Below, one piece after another: positions 10,351 through 21,540 of a stretch of DNA of 64,000 nt (its first letter is position 1; each line of letters starts with the position of its first letter). Origin of the DNA: Candidatus Pacearchaeota archaeon (GTDB lineage Archaea > Nanoarchaeota > Nanoarchaeia > Pacearchaeales > GW2011-AR1); assembly GCA_023228065.1 (NCBI GenBank), contig JALOBX010000001.1, positions 62,001 to 126,000 on the forward strand, read 5' to 3'. Both the position numbers and the translations under genes were made by a program. Under the pieces are notes generated by a model. It searched no databases. It was not told the origin of the DNA and was given only the letters and a program-made list of their open reading frames with translations.

Positions 10351-10463
10351 GCGGAGGTGGCACAATGGTACTGCGTCTCCCTGCAGCTCAAAAGAAGGGC
10401 TTTATCGCTCTACTCTTGCGAGCAGAGAGGAGATTTTCGGGAGTTCGATTCTCCCCCTCCGCT
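10351..10463 (+). tRNA. tRNA-Cys (anticodon GCA) with a 41-nt intron
   Basis: Exons 10351-10386 and 10428-10463 give a 72-nt tRNA. Acceptor GCGGAGG/CCTCCGC with T73 (U73 is a tRNA-Cys identity base); anticodon stem TCTCC/GGAGA around CTGCAG+A; T arm GGGAG-TTCGATT-CTCCC. The intron sits at position 37/38. CTGC (exon) pairs with GCAG (10422-10425) between 3-nt bulges AGC and AGA, as EndA requires. The D stem has three clean pairs. Confidence 0.9.
10387..10427 (+). other. Intron of tRNA-Cys (bulge-helix-bulge)
   Basis: Boundaries were set by the bulge-helix-bulge: cut after the second base of each 3-nt bulge. The intron can itself fold (AAGA/TCTT and GGGC/GCTC). The inner helix next to the bulges is only two clear pairs (TC/GA), so the motif is slightly relaxed. 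The EndA gene at 15272 is the expected processing enzyme. Confidence 0.8.
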
Positions 10464-10571: not shown

Positions 10572-12245
10572 ATGGCTTTTATTGTCAAAAAAACAATAAG
10601 TGGAAAAGATTATTATTATCTCAATGAGAACAAAAGAATTGATGGGAAAGTAAAAACTAAGACTCTTGCGTATCTTGGAAAAAATAAAAAACAAGCAGAG
10701 GAAAAATTTAAAATCTTTTTAGCAGAATCATCTGTAAGAGAAAATACAATTAAAAAAGAAAATAAAAATAAAATGACACCAAATCCGAACCCTACAAAGA
10801 TTTCTATTGAAGAGTTGTCTAATTTTTGCAAAACAAAGGGTTTCATTTTTAGAAGCTCAGATATTTATGGAGGATTTTCTGGCTTCTGGGATTTTGGGCC
10901 ATTAGGAGTTGAATTATTTAATAATATTAAAAGAGAATGGTGGAAATTTTTTGTTCATGAAAAAGAAAATATTGTTGGAATGGAAGCAAGTGTTATCTCT
11001 CATCCAAGAGCATGGATTGCAAGCGGGCATGTAGCCAACTTTAGCGATGTTGCAGTTTATTGCCCCAAATGCAAGCTTTCAACAAAGATTGATAAGAGCG
11101 AAGTTGGAAAAATAAAATGTGAGAAATGTAACGGAGAGTATGAAGTTAAGGGGGAATTTAGTTTAATGTTTAAGACAAAGGTGGGAGCATTGGATACAAT
11201 TGATGCTTATTTAAGAGGAGAAACAGCACAAGGAATGTTTATGGATTTTAAATTAATTCAGCAAACTTCAAGAATGCAACTTCCATTTGGTATTGCACAA
11301 ATTGGAAGATGTTTTAGAAATGAAATTGCTCCCAGAGACTTTTTATTCAGATGCAGAGAATTTCACATTGGAGAATTTGAATTTTTTATAAATCCTGAAG
11401 AAAAAAAATGCGATCTGCTTGATGAAATTCATCTTAATGTAGAATTTAATCTTTTAGACTCTGAAACACAAAAAATAGGGAAAGATGAATTAAAAAAAGT
11501 GAAGATGAAAGAATTAATCAAAAAAGGAAAACTTGAAGAATGGCATGCTTATTGGCTTGCAGAACAAATTATTTGGTTTAGAAAAATTGGACTGGAAAAA
11601 ATAAAAATAAGAGAACATACAAAAGAAGAGTTAAGCCACTACAGTTCTGCTACTTTTGATATTGATTATGAATATCCTTTTGGTTCAAAAGAAGTTGCCG
11701 GAAATGCTAACCGGGGACAATATGATTTGACACAGCATCAGAAAGAAAGCAAGGAAAAAATGGAAATCTTCGACGAGAAATACAAGAAAAAAGTTCTTCC
11801 TAAGGTTATTGAGCCAACATTTGGAATTGAGAGAATTTTTTTAGCTATTCTTACAAAAGCATATACTTACGATTCTGAAAGACAAAATGTTATTTTAAAA
11901 ATTCCCGCTTTTCTGGCTCCTATCAAAGCAGCAATATTTCCAATTGTAAAAAGAGATGATTTAGAAAAAATTTCAAGAGAAATCTTTAACAATTTAAAAA
12001 AAGAATGGAATGTCTCTTATGATGAATCTGGAAGCATTGGGAGAAGATATGCAAGGAATGATGAAATTGGAACTCCTTTTTGTATAACTATCGACGAGGA
12101 ATCTATCAAAAATAAAGATGTTACAATAAGAGATAGGGACACAAAAAAACAAATCCGTGTAAAAATTTCTGAATTAATGGAAGTCATAAAAAAAATTATT
12201 GCTGGAGAAATTAATTTTGAAAAAGCGGGAAAATTAATAAAATAA
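10572..12245 (+). CDS. glyS: Glycyl-tRNA synthetase, archaeal/eukaryal type, with extra N-terminal module
   Basis: Class II synthetase charging tRNA-Gly. Core visible: GGFSGFWDFGPLGVELFNNI, the zinc-binding CPKCKLSTKI...CEKC insert, motif 2 RCFRNEIAPRDFLFRCREF, motif 3 PTFGIERIFLAIL and an HGTP anticodon-binding domain (LAPIKAAIFPIV). The first ~48 residues (FIVKKTISGKDYYYL...GKVKTKTLAYLGK) are not part of the usual enzyme; they resemble the N-terminal leader segment of IS1634-type transposases. An internal Met around base 10773 would give a conventional start, but the upstream ATG preserves an uninterrupted, well-formed module. 557 residues. Confidence 0.95.
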   Translation: MAFIVKKTISGKDYYYLNENKRIDGKVKTKTLAYLGKNKKQAEEKFKIFLAESSVRENTIKKENKNKMTPNPNPTKISIEELSNFCKTKGFIFRSSDIYGGFSGFWDFGPLGVELFNNIKREWWKFFVHEKENIVGMEASVISHPRAWIASGHVANFSDVAVYCPKCKLSTKIDKSEVGKIKCEKCNGEYEVKGEFSLMFKTKVGALDTIDAYLRGETAQGMFMDFKLIQQTSRMQLPFGIAQIGRCFRNEIAPRDFLFRCREFHIGEFEFFINPEEKKCDLLDEIHLNVEFNLLDSETQKIGKDELKKVKMKELIKKGKLEEWHAYWLAEQIIWFRKIGLEKIKIREHTKEELSHYSSATFDIDYEYPFGSKEVAGNANRGQYDLTQHQKESKEKMEIFDEKYKKKVLPKVIEPTFGIERIFLAILTKAYTYDSERQNVILKIPAFLAPIKAAIFPIVKRDDLEKISREIFNNLKKEWNVSYDESGSIGRRYARNDEIGTPFCITIDEESIKNKDVTIRDRDTKKQIRVKISELMEVIKKIIAGEINFEKAGKLIK

Positions 12246-15271: not shown

Positions 15272-15790
15272 TTAAGGTTTAATCCATTTAACTTCATAAT
15301 AGCTTATATCTCCTTCTTCATCTGCAATTGCTAAAAGAAGATTCTTCTTTGTGCTGTGGGCAACTCTGTTCTTTGCAGAGAACTCATGCCATGTAAGTCC
15401 TTTTGACTCATGTTCAGCAAATACAATCCATCTTGCATGTTTCTCTCCTGGTTTTGCACCTTTATCATAAACTCTGAAATCAGCTCCAAATTTCAAGGCA
15501 GTTTTAACAACATATCCTCTTTCTCTTAAATCTTTAAAAACAAGATATTTTATCTGAATCTTTTTGTCAATTTTTCTGCACTTTTCTATAAATTCTTTCT
15601 TTGACAGTTTTTTGTCCTTTGCAAATATTTCCATTTTGCCCTTCTCAACGAGAAATATTGCTTCTGCTATAGAATATTGAATTTTATCTTCTCTAGGTTC
15701 TCCGAAATGGCTTTTTTCATAAAGGGAATATGCTAATGTATCTGCACTGGATATTATTTCCCCCATGATGTATGATTTTATCTTGTCCAT
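15272..15790 (-). CDS. endA: tRNA-splicing endonuclease
   Basis: 172 residues, the size of the homotetrameric archaeal enzyme that cuts bulge-helix-bulge introns. The catalytic triad is readable: Tyr108 in FRVYDKG, His118 in GEKHARWIVF, and Lys148 in AHSTKKNLLLA. The C-terminal WHEF...YYEVKWIKP strands are typical of the dimer interface. Its substrate in this window is the tRNA-Cys intron at 10387. Confidence 0.95.
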   Translation of the reverse strand: MDKIKSYIMGEIISSADTLAYSLYEKSHFGEPREDKIQYSIAEAIFLVEKGKMEIFAKDKKLSKKEFIEKCRKIDKKIQIKYLVFKDLRERGYVVKTALKFGADFRVYDKGAKPGEKHARWIVFAEHESKGLTWHEFSAKNRVAHSTKKNLLLAIADEEGDISYYEVKWIKP

Positions 15791-15810: not shown

Positions 15811-15823
15811 ATATTTAAAAATA
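15811..15823 (+). promoter_or_regulatory. TATA box for the leuS leader transcript
   Basis: ATATTTAAAAATA is centred 27 nt before the ATG of the mini-ORF at 15844, so the predicted transcript starts on that ATG. It is the nearest strong promoter upstream of the leuS cluster. Confidence 0.55.
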
Positions 15824-15843
15824 TGCTTTACACCTATATTTTT

Positions 15844-15918
15844 ATGAAAACTGCTAAGGTTAATCAGTTAATGAATGTAACTTTTGTAGTTGTAGTTCTC
15901 TTAGTCTTACTGTTATAA
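15844..15918 (+). CDS. Leu/Val-rich leader peptide (24 codons) upstream of leuS
   Basis: The peptide begins MKTAKVNQLMN and ends VVVVLLVLLL, with five Leu codons among the last six (CTC TTA GTC TTA CTG TTA). It is predicted leaderless. The stop codon overlaps a 9-bp hairpin whose loop holds T6. The next genes are an 87-codon ORF and leuS. This is the classic layout of a leucine attenuator leader, although a hydrophobic Leu/Val run also fits a small membrane peptide; both readings are open. Confidence 0.5.
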   Translation: MKTAKVNQLMNVTFVVVVLLVLLL

Positions 15919-15941
15919 ATCTCAGATTTTTTCTGGGATTT
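15917..15941 (+). promoter_or_regulatory. Hairpin with U-tract after the Leu leader peptide
   Basis: AAATCTCAG (15917-15925) pairs with CTGGGATTT (15933-15941) through nine pairs including one G-U; the loop is ATTTTTT. The run of T is a potential archaeal termination signal. Stalling at the Leu codons would cover or free this element. A further AGAG/CTCT pair lies at 15957-15966. Confidence 0.5.
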
Positions 15942-15988
15942 GCATTATTATCTATTAGAGAACTCTCAATTAAATTAAAAAACAAAAA

Positions 15989-16252
15989 ATGGAAAAACGA
16001 AAAGTAATCAACATGGGCGGAGGAGAATATCAGTTGCTAAAACCCAAAACTAATGACAATCATCCTTGTTATCATGATTTTGGGGAGAAAAAAAGCATCA
16101 AAGCGATTGTTTATATGATAGACAATAAAGTTTTTGATTTAGAACTTTCAGAAGGTATTCAAAGTGAAATAAGAAATTACAGAGAGAATCTTGTGAAAAA
16201 GAAACAAAGATATTTTCAGAAGAATGGACTAGAAAACAATTTAAAGAATTAA
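15989..16252 (+). CDS. Unknown protein (87 aa) between leader and leuS
   Basis: Starts MEKRKVINMGGGEYQLLKPK, contains NHPCYHDFGEKKSIKAIVYM and a charged helical C terminus (EGIQSEIRNYRENLVKKKQR). No Shine-Dalgarno; an AT-rich stretch 20 nt upstream could be its own TATA box, otherwise it is on the leader transcript. It ends 14 nt before leuS, suggesting co-transcription. No family recognised. Confidence 0.65.
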   Translation: MEKRKVINMGGGEYQLLKPKTNDNHPCYHDFGEKKSIKAIVYMIDNKVFDLELSEGIQSEIRNYRENLVKKKQRYFQKNGLENNLKN

Positions 16253-16266
16253 AACAATTTACTGAT

Positions 16267-18735
16267 ATGGAAATGGATTTTTCAAAAATAGAAAAGAAAT
16301 GGCAGACTAAATGGGAAAAAGGAAATATTTTCGGAGTTAAAGAAGATAATAAAAAAAAGAAGTTTTATGTTTTGGAAATGTATCCTTATCCCTCTGCAAG
16401 CGGATTGCATATTGGACATGCTTTTAATTATATCATAGGAGATATACAGGCAAGATTTAATATTATGGGGGGGTTTAATGTTCTTCACCCAATGGGATTT
16501 GATTCTTTTGGACTTCCTGCAGAAAATGCAGCAATAAAAGCAAAATCTCATCCCAAGATATTTACAGAAGAGGCTATTGAAAATTTTATAAAACAGCAGA
16601 AAGCTCTTGGATTAACTTATGACTGGAGTAGAATGGTAGAATCTCACAAACCAGATTATTATAAATGGGATCAATGGATTTTTCTTAAGATGTTTGAGAA
16701 AGGAATGGCTTACAAAAAAAAGTCATCTGTTAATTGGTGTTCGCAATGCAATACAGTTTTAGCAAATGAACAAGTTAACAATGGAAAATGCTGGAGACAC
16801 AAAGATACAAATGTTGAGATTAAGCATCTTGAACAATGGTTTTTAAAAATTACAGATTATGCTGATGAACTTTATGAAAAAATTGACACTCTTACTGGAT
16901 GGCCAGAAAGAATAAAATTAATGCAGAAAAACTGGATTGGAAAATCTCACGGGACTGAAATCAATTTTGAAATTGATGGAGAAAAATGGCCAATATTTAC
17001 TACAAGACCAGATACAATTTTTGGAGTTACATTTATGGTGATATCTGCACAGCACCCAAGATTGATGGAACTTGTAACTAAAGAACAAAAAAAAGAAGTT
17101 GAAAAATTCTTGAAAAAATTAAAATCAACATCTGAAAAAGATTTGTCTGACTTAGAGAAGGAAGGAGTATTTACTGGAAGTTATGCAATTAATCCAATCA
17201 CCAAAGATAAAGTTCCTGTTTATGCTGGGAATTTTGTGGTTGCTGATTATGGGAGTGGAATGGTAATGGCTGTTCCTGCACATGACCAAAGAGATTTTGA
17301 ATTTGCAAAGAAATATGGAATAAAAATAAAAATTGTTATTCAACCACAAGAATTACCTGAATTAAATATTAAGAACATGAAAGAAGCTTACACTGAAGGG
17401 GGAAAATTAGTTGATTCTGGGAATTTTACAGGATTATTCAATGATGAAGCAAAAGAACATATTTCAATTTTTTTAGAAGAAAAAAAATTAGGTAAGAGAA
17501 TTATTAATTATAAATTAAGAGACTGGTTAATCTCAAGACAAAGATTTTGGGGAACTCCTATTCCAATTATTTATTGTGATAAATGCGGGATTGTCCCTGT
17601 TCCTGAAAAAGATTTACCTGTTAAACTTCCAGAAAATATCAAATTTACCAGCGAGAAAAATCCGTTGATTGAGAATAAAGAATTTGTAAATGTAAAATGT
17701 CCAAAATGTAAGGGAAATGCAAGAAGAGAAACAGATACTATGGATACTTTTGTAAATTCTTCCTGGTACTTTTTTAGATATTGCGACAATAAAAACAACA
17801 AGGCAATTTTTGAAAAGAAAAAAGCAAAATACTGGATGCCTATTGATTTATACATTGGCGGAGCAGAACATGCATGCATGCACTTAATTTATTCTAGATT
17901 TTATACAAAATTCCTTAGAGATTTGGGTTTGACTGATTTGGATGAACCTACTAACAATTTATTTAATCAGGGAATGATTCATGGAGATGATGGGGCAGTC
18001 ATGTCAAAATCTAGGGGGAATGTTATTGATCCTTTGGATGTAATAAAAAAATACAGCGCAGATACTTTGAGAATATTTTTAGTTTCAGTTTCTTCTCCTG
18101 ACAAAGATTCTTCCTGGAGTAATACTGGGATTGAGGGGATGCACAAGTTTATCAATAAATTCATTAATTTTGTTCGGGAAATAAAAAAAGGAAAGTCTTC
18201 TGAAAGAGCTGAAGATAAAATAAACAGGGCAATTGGAAAAATAAGCAATGATGTTAAAGAAATGCAATATAACCTTGCAATAATTAAGATAAGGCAACTT
18301 ATTGATTTCCTTTCTGAAGAAAAAGAAATCTCCAAGAAAGATTTAAACAGTGTTATAAAATTAATTTCCCCTTTTTGTCCTCATATTACAGAAGAACTTT
18401 GGCATAAACTGGGGAATAAAACTTTTATTAGTCTAGAAAGTTGGCCTGTTGCAGATGAAAAGAAAATAAATGATGAAATTGAAAGACAGGACAAAATGAT
18501 TGAAGGAATTTCAAATGATATAAACAATATAATAAAAATTGTTGGAATGAAAAATAAAGTTTTTATTTATACTCTTCCAAAAGAAAAAGAAATCTTTGAA
18601 AAAGCAACAGAGATAATAAAAAAGAAAACTAATCTTGATGTAATTGTTTATTCTGTGAGCGATAAAGAAAAATATGACCCTGAAGGAAAATCAAAAAAAG
18701 CTAAGCCAGGAAGGCCTGCTATATACCTTGAGTGA
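16267..18735 (+). CDS. leuS: Leucyl-tRNA synthetase, bacterial type
   Basis: Class I synthetase. HIGH is at residues 48-51 (SGLHIGHAFNY) and the signature MSKSRGN near residue 578. Bacterial-type features: MYPYPSASGLHIGH, FGLPAENAAIKAK, VNWCSQCNTVLANEQV, WPERIKLMQKNWIGKS, IGGAEHACMHLIYSRF, and a CP1 editing domain (FTTRPDTIFGVTFMV, PAHDQRDFEFA). Length 822 is bacterial; archaeal/eukaryal LeuRS is usually over 900 and aligns poorly in these blocks. Two Cys pairs (CDKCG, CPKCKGN) form a zinc site. Likely acquired by transfer; it follows a bacterial-looking leader. Confidence 0.95.
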   Translation: MEMDFSKIEKKWQTKWEKGNIFGVKEDNKKKKFYVLEMYPYPSASGLHIGHAFNYIIGDIQARFNIMGGFNVLHPMGFDSFGLPAENAAIKAKSHPKIFTEEAIENFIKQQKALGLTYDWSRMVESHKPDYYKWDQWIFLKMFEKGMAYKKKSSVNWCSQCNTVLANEQVNNGKCWRHKDTNVEIKHLEQWFLKITDYADELYEKIDTLTGWPERIKLMQKNWIGKSHGTEINFEIDGEKWPIFTTRPDTIFGVTFMVISAQHPRLMELVTKEQKKEVEKFLKKLKSTSEKDLSDLEKEGVFTGSYAINPITKDKVPVYAGNFVVADYGSGMVMAVPAHDQRDFEFAKKYGIKIKIVIQPQELPELNIKNMKEAYTEGGKLVDSGNFTGLFNDEAKEHISIFLEEKKLGKRIINYKLRDWLISRQRFWGTPIPIIYCDKCGIVPVPEKDLPVKLPENIKFTSEKNPLIENKEFVNVKCPKCKGNARRETDTMDTFVNSSWYFFRYCDNKNNKAIFEKKKAKYWMPIDLYIGGAEHACMHLIYSRFYTKFLRDLGLTDLDEPTNNLFNQGMIHGDDGAVMSKSRGNVIDPLDVIKKYSADTLRIFLVSVSSPDKDSSWSNTGIEGMHKFINKFINFVREIKKGKSSERAEDKINRAIGKISNDVKEMQYNLAIIKIRQLIDFLSEEKEISKKDLNSVIKLISPFCPHITEELWHKLGNKTFISLESWPVADEKKINDEIERQDKMIEGISNDINNIIKIVGMKNKVFIYTLPKEKEIFEKATEIIKKKTNLDVIVYSVSDKEKYDPEGKSKKAKPGRPAIYLE

Positions 18736-19845: not shown

Positions 19846-21540
19846 TTAAGCTATCGTCGCTTTAATGCGACGAATTCCCGCACTTGAACCTTCTTCTTTT
19901 GTGATATTAAATTTTCCAATCTCGCAGGTATTTTTTACATGAGGGCCTGCACAAATTTCTTTTGAGAAATCTTCTATTGTATAAACAGAAACTTTTTCCC
20001 CATACTTTTTCTCAAAAACTCCTATTGCTCCTTTTTTCTTTGCTTCTTCTGGAGACATCTCTTCTCTTTTTACTTCACAGGACTTTTGGATTTCTGCATT
20101 TACTAAATCTTCAACTTTCTTTATTTCTTCAGGAGTTAATTTTCTGTTAAAATTAAAATCCAGCCTTAATCTTTCAGAGGTTATATTGCTTCCTTTTTGC
20201 ATGATATTGTCATTTTTTAAAACAATTCTTAATGCAGATAAAAGCAAATGTGTTGCAGTATGCAACTTAGTTGTTCTCTCTGAACTATCTGCAAGTCCTG
20301 ATTTAAATTTCCCCTGTGTTGCTGTCCTTGAAAGCTCCTGGTGCTTTTGCAATTCTTTTTGAAAATTTTCTTTATTCAATTTAATTTTATTTTTCTTGCA
20401 TTCTTCTTCTATCATCTCTATTGGGAATCCATAGCTTTGATAAAGCAAAAAAGATTCTTCTCCTGAAATCTTTTTGTTCTTCGCAAATTTTTCAAATTTA
20501 TTCATTCCTTTTTCCAATGTCAATTGAAATCTTTTTTCTTCTTTTTCTAATTCCTGAAGTATTATCTTTTTGTTTTTTGTAATTTCAGAATAATCTTCAT
20601 AGATATCAAAAACAGGTTTTGCAACATTGATAATAAAATCTTTCATTCCTAAATCCATCCCATATTTTATTGCTCTGCGAATTAATCTTCTTACAATATA
20701 ACCATGTTCAACATTTCCTGGAACAATTCCATCAGCGACTATAAACACAGATGCTTTAATATGGTCTGCAATTATTCTCATAGCTTTTGTTTCATCTTTA
20801 TTTTTCCCGTATTCTTTCCCAGAAAGTTCTTCAATTTTTTTTATTATTGGAAGAAAACAATCTGTTAGATAATTATCATTTAGATTGTTTAGAATTGCAG
20901 TTGTTCTCTCAACACCCATACCAGTATCAACATTTTTTTGTTTTAACGGAATGTATTTTCCTTCTGAATCTTTATTATATTGCATAAAAACATCATTCCA
21001 TATTTCTATATTATTCACAAACATTTCTGTATCTGGACCGCACGGACCTGTTTTTCCTGCTGGGCCCCACCAATTATCTTTTCTTCCCAAGAATTTTATT
21101 TTTGTAACTCCCAGAGATTTCCATATTTTTGCAGCTTCTTCATCTTTTGGAATTTCTTTTTCTCCTTTAAAACAAGTTACAGTCAATTTTTCTTTTGGAA
21201 TCTTTAATATTTTTGTAAGAAATTCAAAACTAAATTCAATTGCTTCTTTTTTAAAATAATCTCCCAAACTCCAATTACCAAGCATCTCAAAAAAAGTATG
21301 GTGGTAAGTATCTCCAACTTCATCGATATCTCCTGTTCTTATACATCTCTGAACATTGCAAAGCCTTTTTCCTAAGGGATGTGACTGCCCTAATAAATAA
21401 GGAACTAATGGATGCATGCCTGCTGTTGTAAACAGAACTGTAGGATCATTCTCTGGGACAAGGCTTGCACTCGGAAGAATAGCATGTCCTTTTGATTTGA
21501 AAAAATCAAGGTATTTTTTTATAAGTTCTTTGCGATTCAT
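19846..21540 (-). CDS. alaS: Alanyl-tRNA synthetase, short bacterial type without C-Ala domain
   Basis: 564 residues. Begins MNRKELIKKYLDFFKSKGH, then PSASLVPENDPTVLFTTAGM, CIRTGDIDEVGDTYHHTFFE and GMGVERTTAILN, which are bacterial/CPR-type AlaRS features; archaeal AlaRS has a different N terminus and is about 900 residues. The editing domain is present (HTATHLLLSAL and CAGPHV zinc ligands), and the protein ends right after GIRRIKAT. The C-Ala oligomerisation/tRNA-elbow domain is absent. It starts 50 nt from a divergent gene. Confidence 0.93.
   Translation of the reverse strand: MNRKELIKKYLDFFKSKGHAILPSASLVPENDPTVLFTTAGMHPLVPYLLGQSHPLGKRLCNVQRCIRTGDIDEVGDTYHHTFFEMLGNWSLGDYFKKEAIEFSFEFLTKILKIPKEKLTVTCFKGEKEIPKDEEAAKIWKSLGVTKIKFLGRKDNWWGPAGKTGPCGPDTEMFVNNIEIWNDVFMQYNKDSEGKYIPLKQKNVDTGMGVERTTAILNNLNDNYLTDCFLPIIKKIEELSGKEYGKNKDETKAMRIIADHIKASVFIVADGIVPGNVEHGYIVRRLIRRAIKYGMDLGMKDFIINVAKPVFDIYEDYSEITKNKKIILQELEKEEKRFQLTLEKGMNKFEKFAKNKKISGEESFLLYQSYGFPIEMIEEECKKNKIKLNKENFQKELQKHQELSRTATQGKFKSGLADSSERTTKLHTATHLLLSALRIVLKNDNIMQKGSNITSERLRLDFNFNRKLTPEEIKKVEDLVNAEIQKSCEVKREEMSPEEAKKKGAIGVFEKKYGEKVSVYTIEDFSKEICAGPHVKNTCEIGKFNITKEEGSSAGIRRIKATIA

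Follow-up and report, generated by a model that had tools for sequence, protein, structure and literature searches.

The question raised by this locus is whether an archaeon controls an aminoacyl-tRNA synthetase gene with a leader peptide that is read by the ribosome. In bacteria, the trp, leu and ilv leaders work by ribosome-mediated attenuation. In a 64,000-nucleotide (nt) stretch of DNA from a Candidatus Pacearchaeota archaeon (contig JALOBX010000001.1, positions 62,001 to 126,000; this whole stretch is called the window), a 24-codon open reading frame (ORF) with a leucine-rich end lies before leuS, the gene of leucyl-tRNA synthetase (LeuRS), and an earlier interpretation made without database searches (the sequence-only reading) had suggested attenuation. 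Its account of the reading frames holds up: the TATA box before the leader reads TTTAAA, the five Leu codons of three kinds among the last six are read directly in the sequence (CTC TTA GTC TTA CTG TTA), the LeuRS is of bacterial type (TIGR00396 match) and the one short ORF between leader and leuS, here called orf2, is modelled as a folded protein (Table 1). Our best reading, to which we give a probability of roughly 0.7, is that leuS and ileS of these archaea are subject to ribosome-mediated, amino-acid-specific leader-peptide attenuation, which would act via orf2 on the synthetase. It rests on four properties shown by comparison of loci: the cognate residue of the leaders, their promoter geometry, the helices at their stop codons and their placement.

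For this comparison, we assembled 119 leuS loci, most of them from 138 genomes of the family; six are archaeal-type, and the others came from a further search and the window. The set takes in related genomes and loci with cut-off upstream DNA, and L114 (the L001/L081 locus in another genome) was dropped. For ileS, 90 loci were used of 130 genomes with a match, and as controls we took the best-scoring 30 loci each among the 123 (valS), 126 (pheS), 126 (thrS) and 133 (trpS) genomes with a match. A Leu+Val rule called ATG ORFs of 14-32 codons with a TATA-like hexamer 18-40 nt upstream and, in the last eight residues, at least six Leu or Val including at least three Leu. This rule found a leader at 23/119 leuS loci, at 0/119 on the antisense strand and at none of the 30 valS and first 30 ileS loci. 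When we instead required at least four copies of a given residue in the last eight of a TATA-driven ORF of 14-34 codons (one-residue rule), the leuS loci yielded 22/119 for Leu, 0/119 for Ile, 3/119 for Val and 1/119 for Phe, with one Leu-rich antisense ORF (1/119). Recurrence of the ORF in relatives, one of the tests set in advance, was observed, with most loci lacking it. At ileS, the same rule found Ile-rich ORFs at 17/90 loci (examples are MAIKKIQTIIGISSIIAIIIIII and MAIENIQIERRIISIIAIII), Leu-rich ones at 1/90 and no antisense Ile-rich ORF (0/90). The split between the two genes gave Fisher values of 2.5e-5 (Leu-rich) and 2.3e-7 (Ile-rich) for loci that are not independent. Among further genomes of the class, Ile-rich ORFs were present at 4 of 54 ileS loci, three of them convincing.

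A cognate-rich leader was found at none of the 30 loci each of valS, pheS, thrS and trpS; Leu-rich ORFs occurred there at 1/30 valS loci (last-8 rule) and 2/30 pheS loci (last-10 rule). The better controls are ileS for Leu (79 short TATA-ORFs) and leuS for Ile (90). As a separate observation, 13 of the 30 regions upstream of pheS (e.g. L337, L342, L354, L358) share a conserved LGL(V/I)(L/M)GMP motif that is absent from the other sets searched and is probably the C-terminus of the adjoining gene.

Residue composition was analysed in 29 Leu leaders (the 23 from the Leu+Val rule and six near misses picked by eye: L099, L106, L176, L182, L184, L265) and 15 Ile leaders (the 17 one-residue matches minus L281 and L291, removed by eye). 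The last ten residues of the Leu leaders (n = 290) comprise 145 Leu, 79 Val, 27 Ala, 10 Ile and 1 Phe, and those of the Ile leaders (n = 150) 97 Ile, 19 Ser, 15 Ala, 2 Leu and 2 Val; the leaders had been selected for Leu(+Val) or Ile content, not for absence of the opposite residue. Free replacement of Leu by Ile, Val or Phe had been named as a refuting outcome. Ile and Phe are not freely swapped in, and Val and Ala replacements are common. Since the long ORFs of the window contain 9.4% Ile and 8.4% Leu and the tails are nevertheless unmixed, plain hydrophobicity fails to explain the split. Judged by these sequences, the leader residue follows the adjoining synthetase, and one mark of an attenuation leader, a short ORF whose codons match the amino acid of the adjoining gene, is present. 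Leu codon usage in the tails is unlike that of the window's long ORFs (CTC 19/145 vs 33/1201), partly because the helix described below uses GTTCTC. In 80 genomes examined for both, a Leu leader was present in 11 of the 15 with an Ile leader (p 8.7e-5, kinship ignored; the lists were made by hand and counted L281, the near misses and L001 as leaders).

The promoter geometry is uniform. In 44/44 leaders, the TATA hexamer closest to a 30-nt spacing has its first base 27-30 nt 5' of the ATG, and under the same rule this was the case for 36/127 control ORFs. Such spacing fits a leaderless start, so that transcription probably begins at or next to the leader ATG.

At the leader end, we observed RNA helices in three layouts; the two Leu classes were set by eye and leave L097 and L265 in neither. 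In class 1 (12 loci including the window), an outer helix surrounds a stop-adjacent hairpin. Class 2 (15 loci) has a short hairpin in which the leader end pairs with post-stop bases that can alternatively pair with the orf2 start. The 15 Ile leaders carry a single hairpin starting between 2 nt inside and 4 nt past the stop, and in 7/13 a Shine-Dalgarno (SD)-like sequence precedes orf2. In terms of mutually exclusive structures, there are thus competing pairings in class 2, nested helices in class 1 and one hairpin in the Ile leaders. The stop-overlapping hairpin of the sequence-only reading is present in the window, with 11 bp (arms 15916-15926 and 15932-15942 in a 40-base fold, stop included) and a U5 loop instead of the 9 bp and T6 it had given; the enclosing outer helix, absent from that reading, gives a z of -4.55 against 100 shuffles. 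A stop helix of a stability reached by at most 5% of shuffles was found in 11/12 class-1 and 15/15 Ile leaders vs 15/161 control ORFs (segment after the stop), and in 11/15 class-2 leaders vs 8/167 control ORFs (segment across the stop). Overall, it beats shuffles in 37/42 leaders. The outer seven stem levels show three to six standard pair types each. For helix A of the 12 class-1 loci, the advantage of own over cross pairing was matched by 3 of 20000 permutations. The two competing class-2 pairings (leader end with post-stop strand, post-stop strand with orf2 start) also favoured own over cross partners (120 and 83 of 20000 permutations). Taken together, the leader ends show a second mark of attenuation leaders, namely conserved RNA helices.

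A nucleotide pattern of class-2 leaders gave six matches in the 138 genomes, each of them preceding leuS, with identical sequence in G001 and G082; a start pattern gave seven matches, five of which are leuS leaders. Apart from this, G082 carries two leuS genes (C1, C11), one with the match values of the G001 locus, which may reflect contamination or DNA common to different bins.

Table 1. Features of the leuS leader locus in the window
Feature	Positions	Strand	Remark
endA, tRNA-intron endonuclease	15272-15790	-	divergent; promoter region common with the leader; adjoins leuS in several relatives too
TATA-box hexamer TTTAAA, leader promoter P1	15814-15819	+	begins 30 nt 5' of the leader ATG
Leader ORF, 24 codons, MKTAKVNQLMNVTFVVVVLLVLLL and stop	15844-15918	+	direct reading; Leu-rich counterparts similarly placed before leuS in relatives
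Helix A (outer), 5' arm GTTCTCTTAG	15895-15904	+	within the Leu codons
Hairpin B, stop-adjacent, U-rich loop	15916-15942	+	z -5.1
Helix A, 3' arm CTA (15952-15954) and AGAGAAC (15957-15963)	15952-15963	+	pairs with 15895-15904, encloses hairpin B
orf2, small protein of 87 codons (87 aa)	15989-16252	+	between leader and leuS
TATA-like hexamer, probable own leuS promoter P2	16240-16245	+	27 nt 5' of the leuS ATG
leuS, bacterial-type leucyl-tRNA synthetase	16267-18735	+	TIGR00396 match

The closest relative, L087 (LeuRS 84% identical), has the gene order and the TATA stretch of the window and the leader MTDKPSQILNLVLPVAVLLVLL. Its stop-adjacent hairpin differs in letters with the pairing intact, and it keeps the AGAGAAC strand and its pairing with the GTTCTCT of the leader.

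An orf2 of at least 55 codons starts 16-105 nt past the leader stop in 41/44 loci, the exceptions being L163, L300 and L317. The window orf2 has three database relatives (56-62% identical) and a confident alpha/beta model (mean predicted local distance difference test score, pLDDT, of 87), for which structure comparison gave no clear structural relative. The cognate residue is scarce in these proteins: Ile makes up 4.7% of ileS-orf2 vs 8.4% of leuS-orf2, and Leu 7.2% of leuS-orf2 vs 9.5% of ileS-orf2. This low content hints at production when that residue is scarce.

From these elements, we infer ribosome stalling, an ON state under starvation and output through orf2 to the synthetase. The 24-codon ORF would be a ribosome-read sensor of Leu-tRNA charging. 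The RNA would start at or beside the leader ATG and ribosomes would translate the leader; if charged Leu-tRNA is scarce, a ribosome would stall within the run of Leu codons, and its position would decide which RNA helices form at the leader end. The choice of helices would determine whether orf2 is translated and, via translational coupling and relief of polarity, whether expression continues into the synthetase gene. At ileS, the same device would operate with Ile codons.

Several observations weigh against such a mechanism. Under the one-residue rule, 97/119 leuS and 73/90 ileS loci have no leader, the syntenic relatives L090 and L092 carry orf2 and leuS without one, and the leader frame is broken in L001. 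The Fisher values are too small because the genomes are related. The valS, pheS, thrS and trpS sets together contain 57 short TATA-ORFs, so that the per-ORF comparison with these four genes is modest. If no TATA box is demanded, Leu-rich short ORFs appear at 27/119 leuS loci in sense and 5/119 in antisense orientation. In the window, which contains 68 short TATA-ORFs on both strands, the leader ORF alone meets the Leu+Val rule, and a looser rule (four or more Leu among the eight C-terminal residues) is passed by four of the 68, three of them located elsewhere; by itself, the leader ORF is therefore not extraordinary, and what sets it above chance is its recurrence at the leuS genes of relatives, judged against antisense strands and other genes. 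Val too is abundant in the Leu leaders (79/290), and valS has no such leader. The composition contrast of orf2 may stem from different kinds of orf2 protein, the fold being predicted for the window orf2 alone. Finally, leader and leuS lie close together on the same strand, but leuS has a TATA-like hexamer of its own, which the sequence-only reading had not mentioned. Such a hexamer lies 25-33 nt 5' of the leuS ATG in 17/22 leader loci and 50/61 non-leader loci, with a background of 51/339 upstream-region ATGs, and an SD-like sequence was seen in 0/22 leader loci (22 of the 29 were examined). Going by these signals, leuS may be independent of the leader transcript.

This last point favours a variant that we regard as the best of the alternatives, yet as clearly less probable than attenuation reaching the synthetase. 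Here the same ribosome sensor would have orf2 as its only output: leader and orf2 would form their own transcription unit, the synthetase would be expressed from its own leaderless promoter, and the orf2 product, or transcription crossing P2, would adjust the synthetase indirectly. Counter to the sequence-only model, most leaders are followed by an orf2 and leuS has a TATA to itself, so that the direct output may indeed be orf2; moreover, the orf2 start is covered by helices in class 2, and the Ile hairpins end near it. No common product is evident, however, since the 41 orf2 proteins fall into 28 clusters, and the leaders at L163, L300 and L317 precede the synthetase without such an orf2.

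Somewhat more doubtful is transcription attenuation proper, in which the U-rich stop hairpin would be a regulated terminator or a cleavage site (aCPSF1/FttA) that the leader ribosome masks or exposes. Of the 27 class-1 and Ile hairpins, 16 have a run of at least four U within the loop, and in two (L184 and L238) such a run comes after the stem. Archaeal poly(U) and aCPSF1 termination, with its possible exclusion by coupled ribosomes, has been discussed (PMC8116511). Where present, however, the U-run sits nearly always in the loop, and 11/27 loops have none. In the window too it is in the loop, so that the stem followed by a U-run that defines an intrinsic terminator was not found there. For lack of this classical terminator, we do not claim membership in the bacterial attenuation class for a device that would work like bacterial attenuation.

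It is very improbable that the leader encodes a small hydrophobic membrane or type-I-toxin-like peptide whose position before leuS is incidental. The leader tail alone does resemble a transmembrane helix, as the sequence-only reading had cautioned, but the tails are Leu-rich at leuS and Ile-rich at ileS and almost unmixed, and all six class-2 pattern matches precede leuS. Hydrophobicity kept with any aliphatic residue was not observed: Val and Ala do occur, and Leu and Ile are not exchanged between leuS and ileS leaders. Chance or an artefact of AT-rich composition, which the four Leu-rich tails among the 68 window ORFs might suggest, can practically be dismissed in view of the antisense counts and of leader helices and promoter spacing unlike those of control ORFs.

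The sequence-only reading had further proposed that the device came with the bacterial-type LeuRS. This part falls. Archaeal-type leuS carries a leader in 3/6 genomes (in L185 and L188 it passes the rule, in L184 it was recognised by eye), and ileS possesses a version of its own. In 66 leuS loci of bacteria, a looser rule that demanded no promoter, the one with 27/119 sense and 5/119 antisense matches at leuS of the family, gave two chance-like matches; the device was therefore not imported with LeuRS. According to this distribution, it goes with the archaeal lineage rather than with the enzyme, and what stands of the original proposal is a Leu-specific leader backed by comparison. As fits a Pacearchaeota-like DPANN archaeon, the window LeuRS has its seven best matches among named contigs in records of Pacearchaeota, Nanoarchaeota, Nanohalarchaeota and Woesearchaeota.

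Two other synthetase-like frames were noted in the window. An alaS-like ORF of 564 aa (19846-21540, minus strand) has its match in NF002436, a model for short alanine--tRNA ligase, and the ORF at 10572-12245 resembles a glycyl-tRNA synthetase by inspection. Close to endA, Rfam places a 113-nt tRNA (10351-10463, plus strand) that is absent from the ARAGORN list and perhaps bears an intron.

Ribosome-mediated attenuation is described as a bacterial mechanism (PMC1183508), and a 2021 paper states that no archaeal example was known to it (PMC8448881). Among the matches listed, we found no archaeal leader-peptide attenuation in the open-access literature. We consider it probable that Pacearchaeota-like DPANN archaea evolved attenuation independently of the bacterial systems, using leaderless TATA transcripts and a rapidly changing intermediate frame, and that this is the first case found in the domain.

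With a residue that switches between Leu and Ile according to the synthetase downstream, the leaders make ribosome steering of expression on nascent RNA testable in archaea. The leaders, a natural variant set (Leu or Ile, three RNA layouts), bear on transcription-translation coupling in this domain and suggest a route by which small-genome archaea could sense amino-acid supply.

T-box riboswitches sense tRNA charging and precede aminoacyl-tRNA synthetase genes. The leaders described here resemble them in their placement before a synthetase gene and in the sensing of tRNA charging that we propose. In contrast to a T-box, the specificity of the window leader would reside in a reading frame, and no T-box model of Rfam matched the window at gathering score; the six Rfam matches there are all tRNA. 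With bacterial amino-acid operon leaders (PMC1183508), the archaeal leaders share a short ORF, a codon run for the amino acid of the downstream gene and helices over these codons and the stop. They differ from them in having a TATA promoter and an apparently leaderless start, in placing the control codons last before the stop, in a neighbouring synthetase that has its own TATA and is separated by orf2 and, in the window, in a U-run placed within the loop rather than behind the stem. A further parallel is erm-type translational attenuation (PMC8274638), in which the position of the leader ribosome gates the downstream start; correspondingly, the class-2 post-stop strand can pair with the orf2 start. 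Unlike the erm-type leaders, those described here are archaeal and would rely on amino-acid codons instead of a drug-dependent stall.

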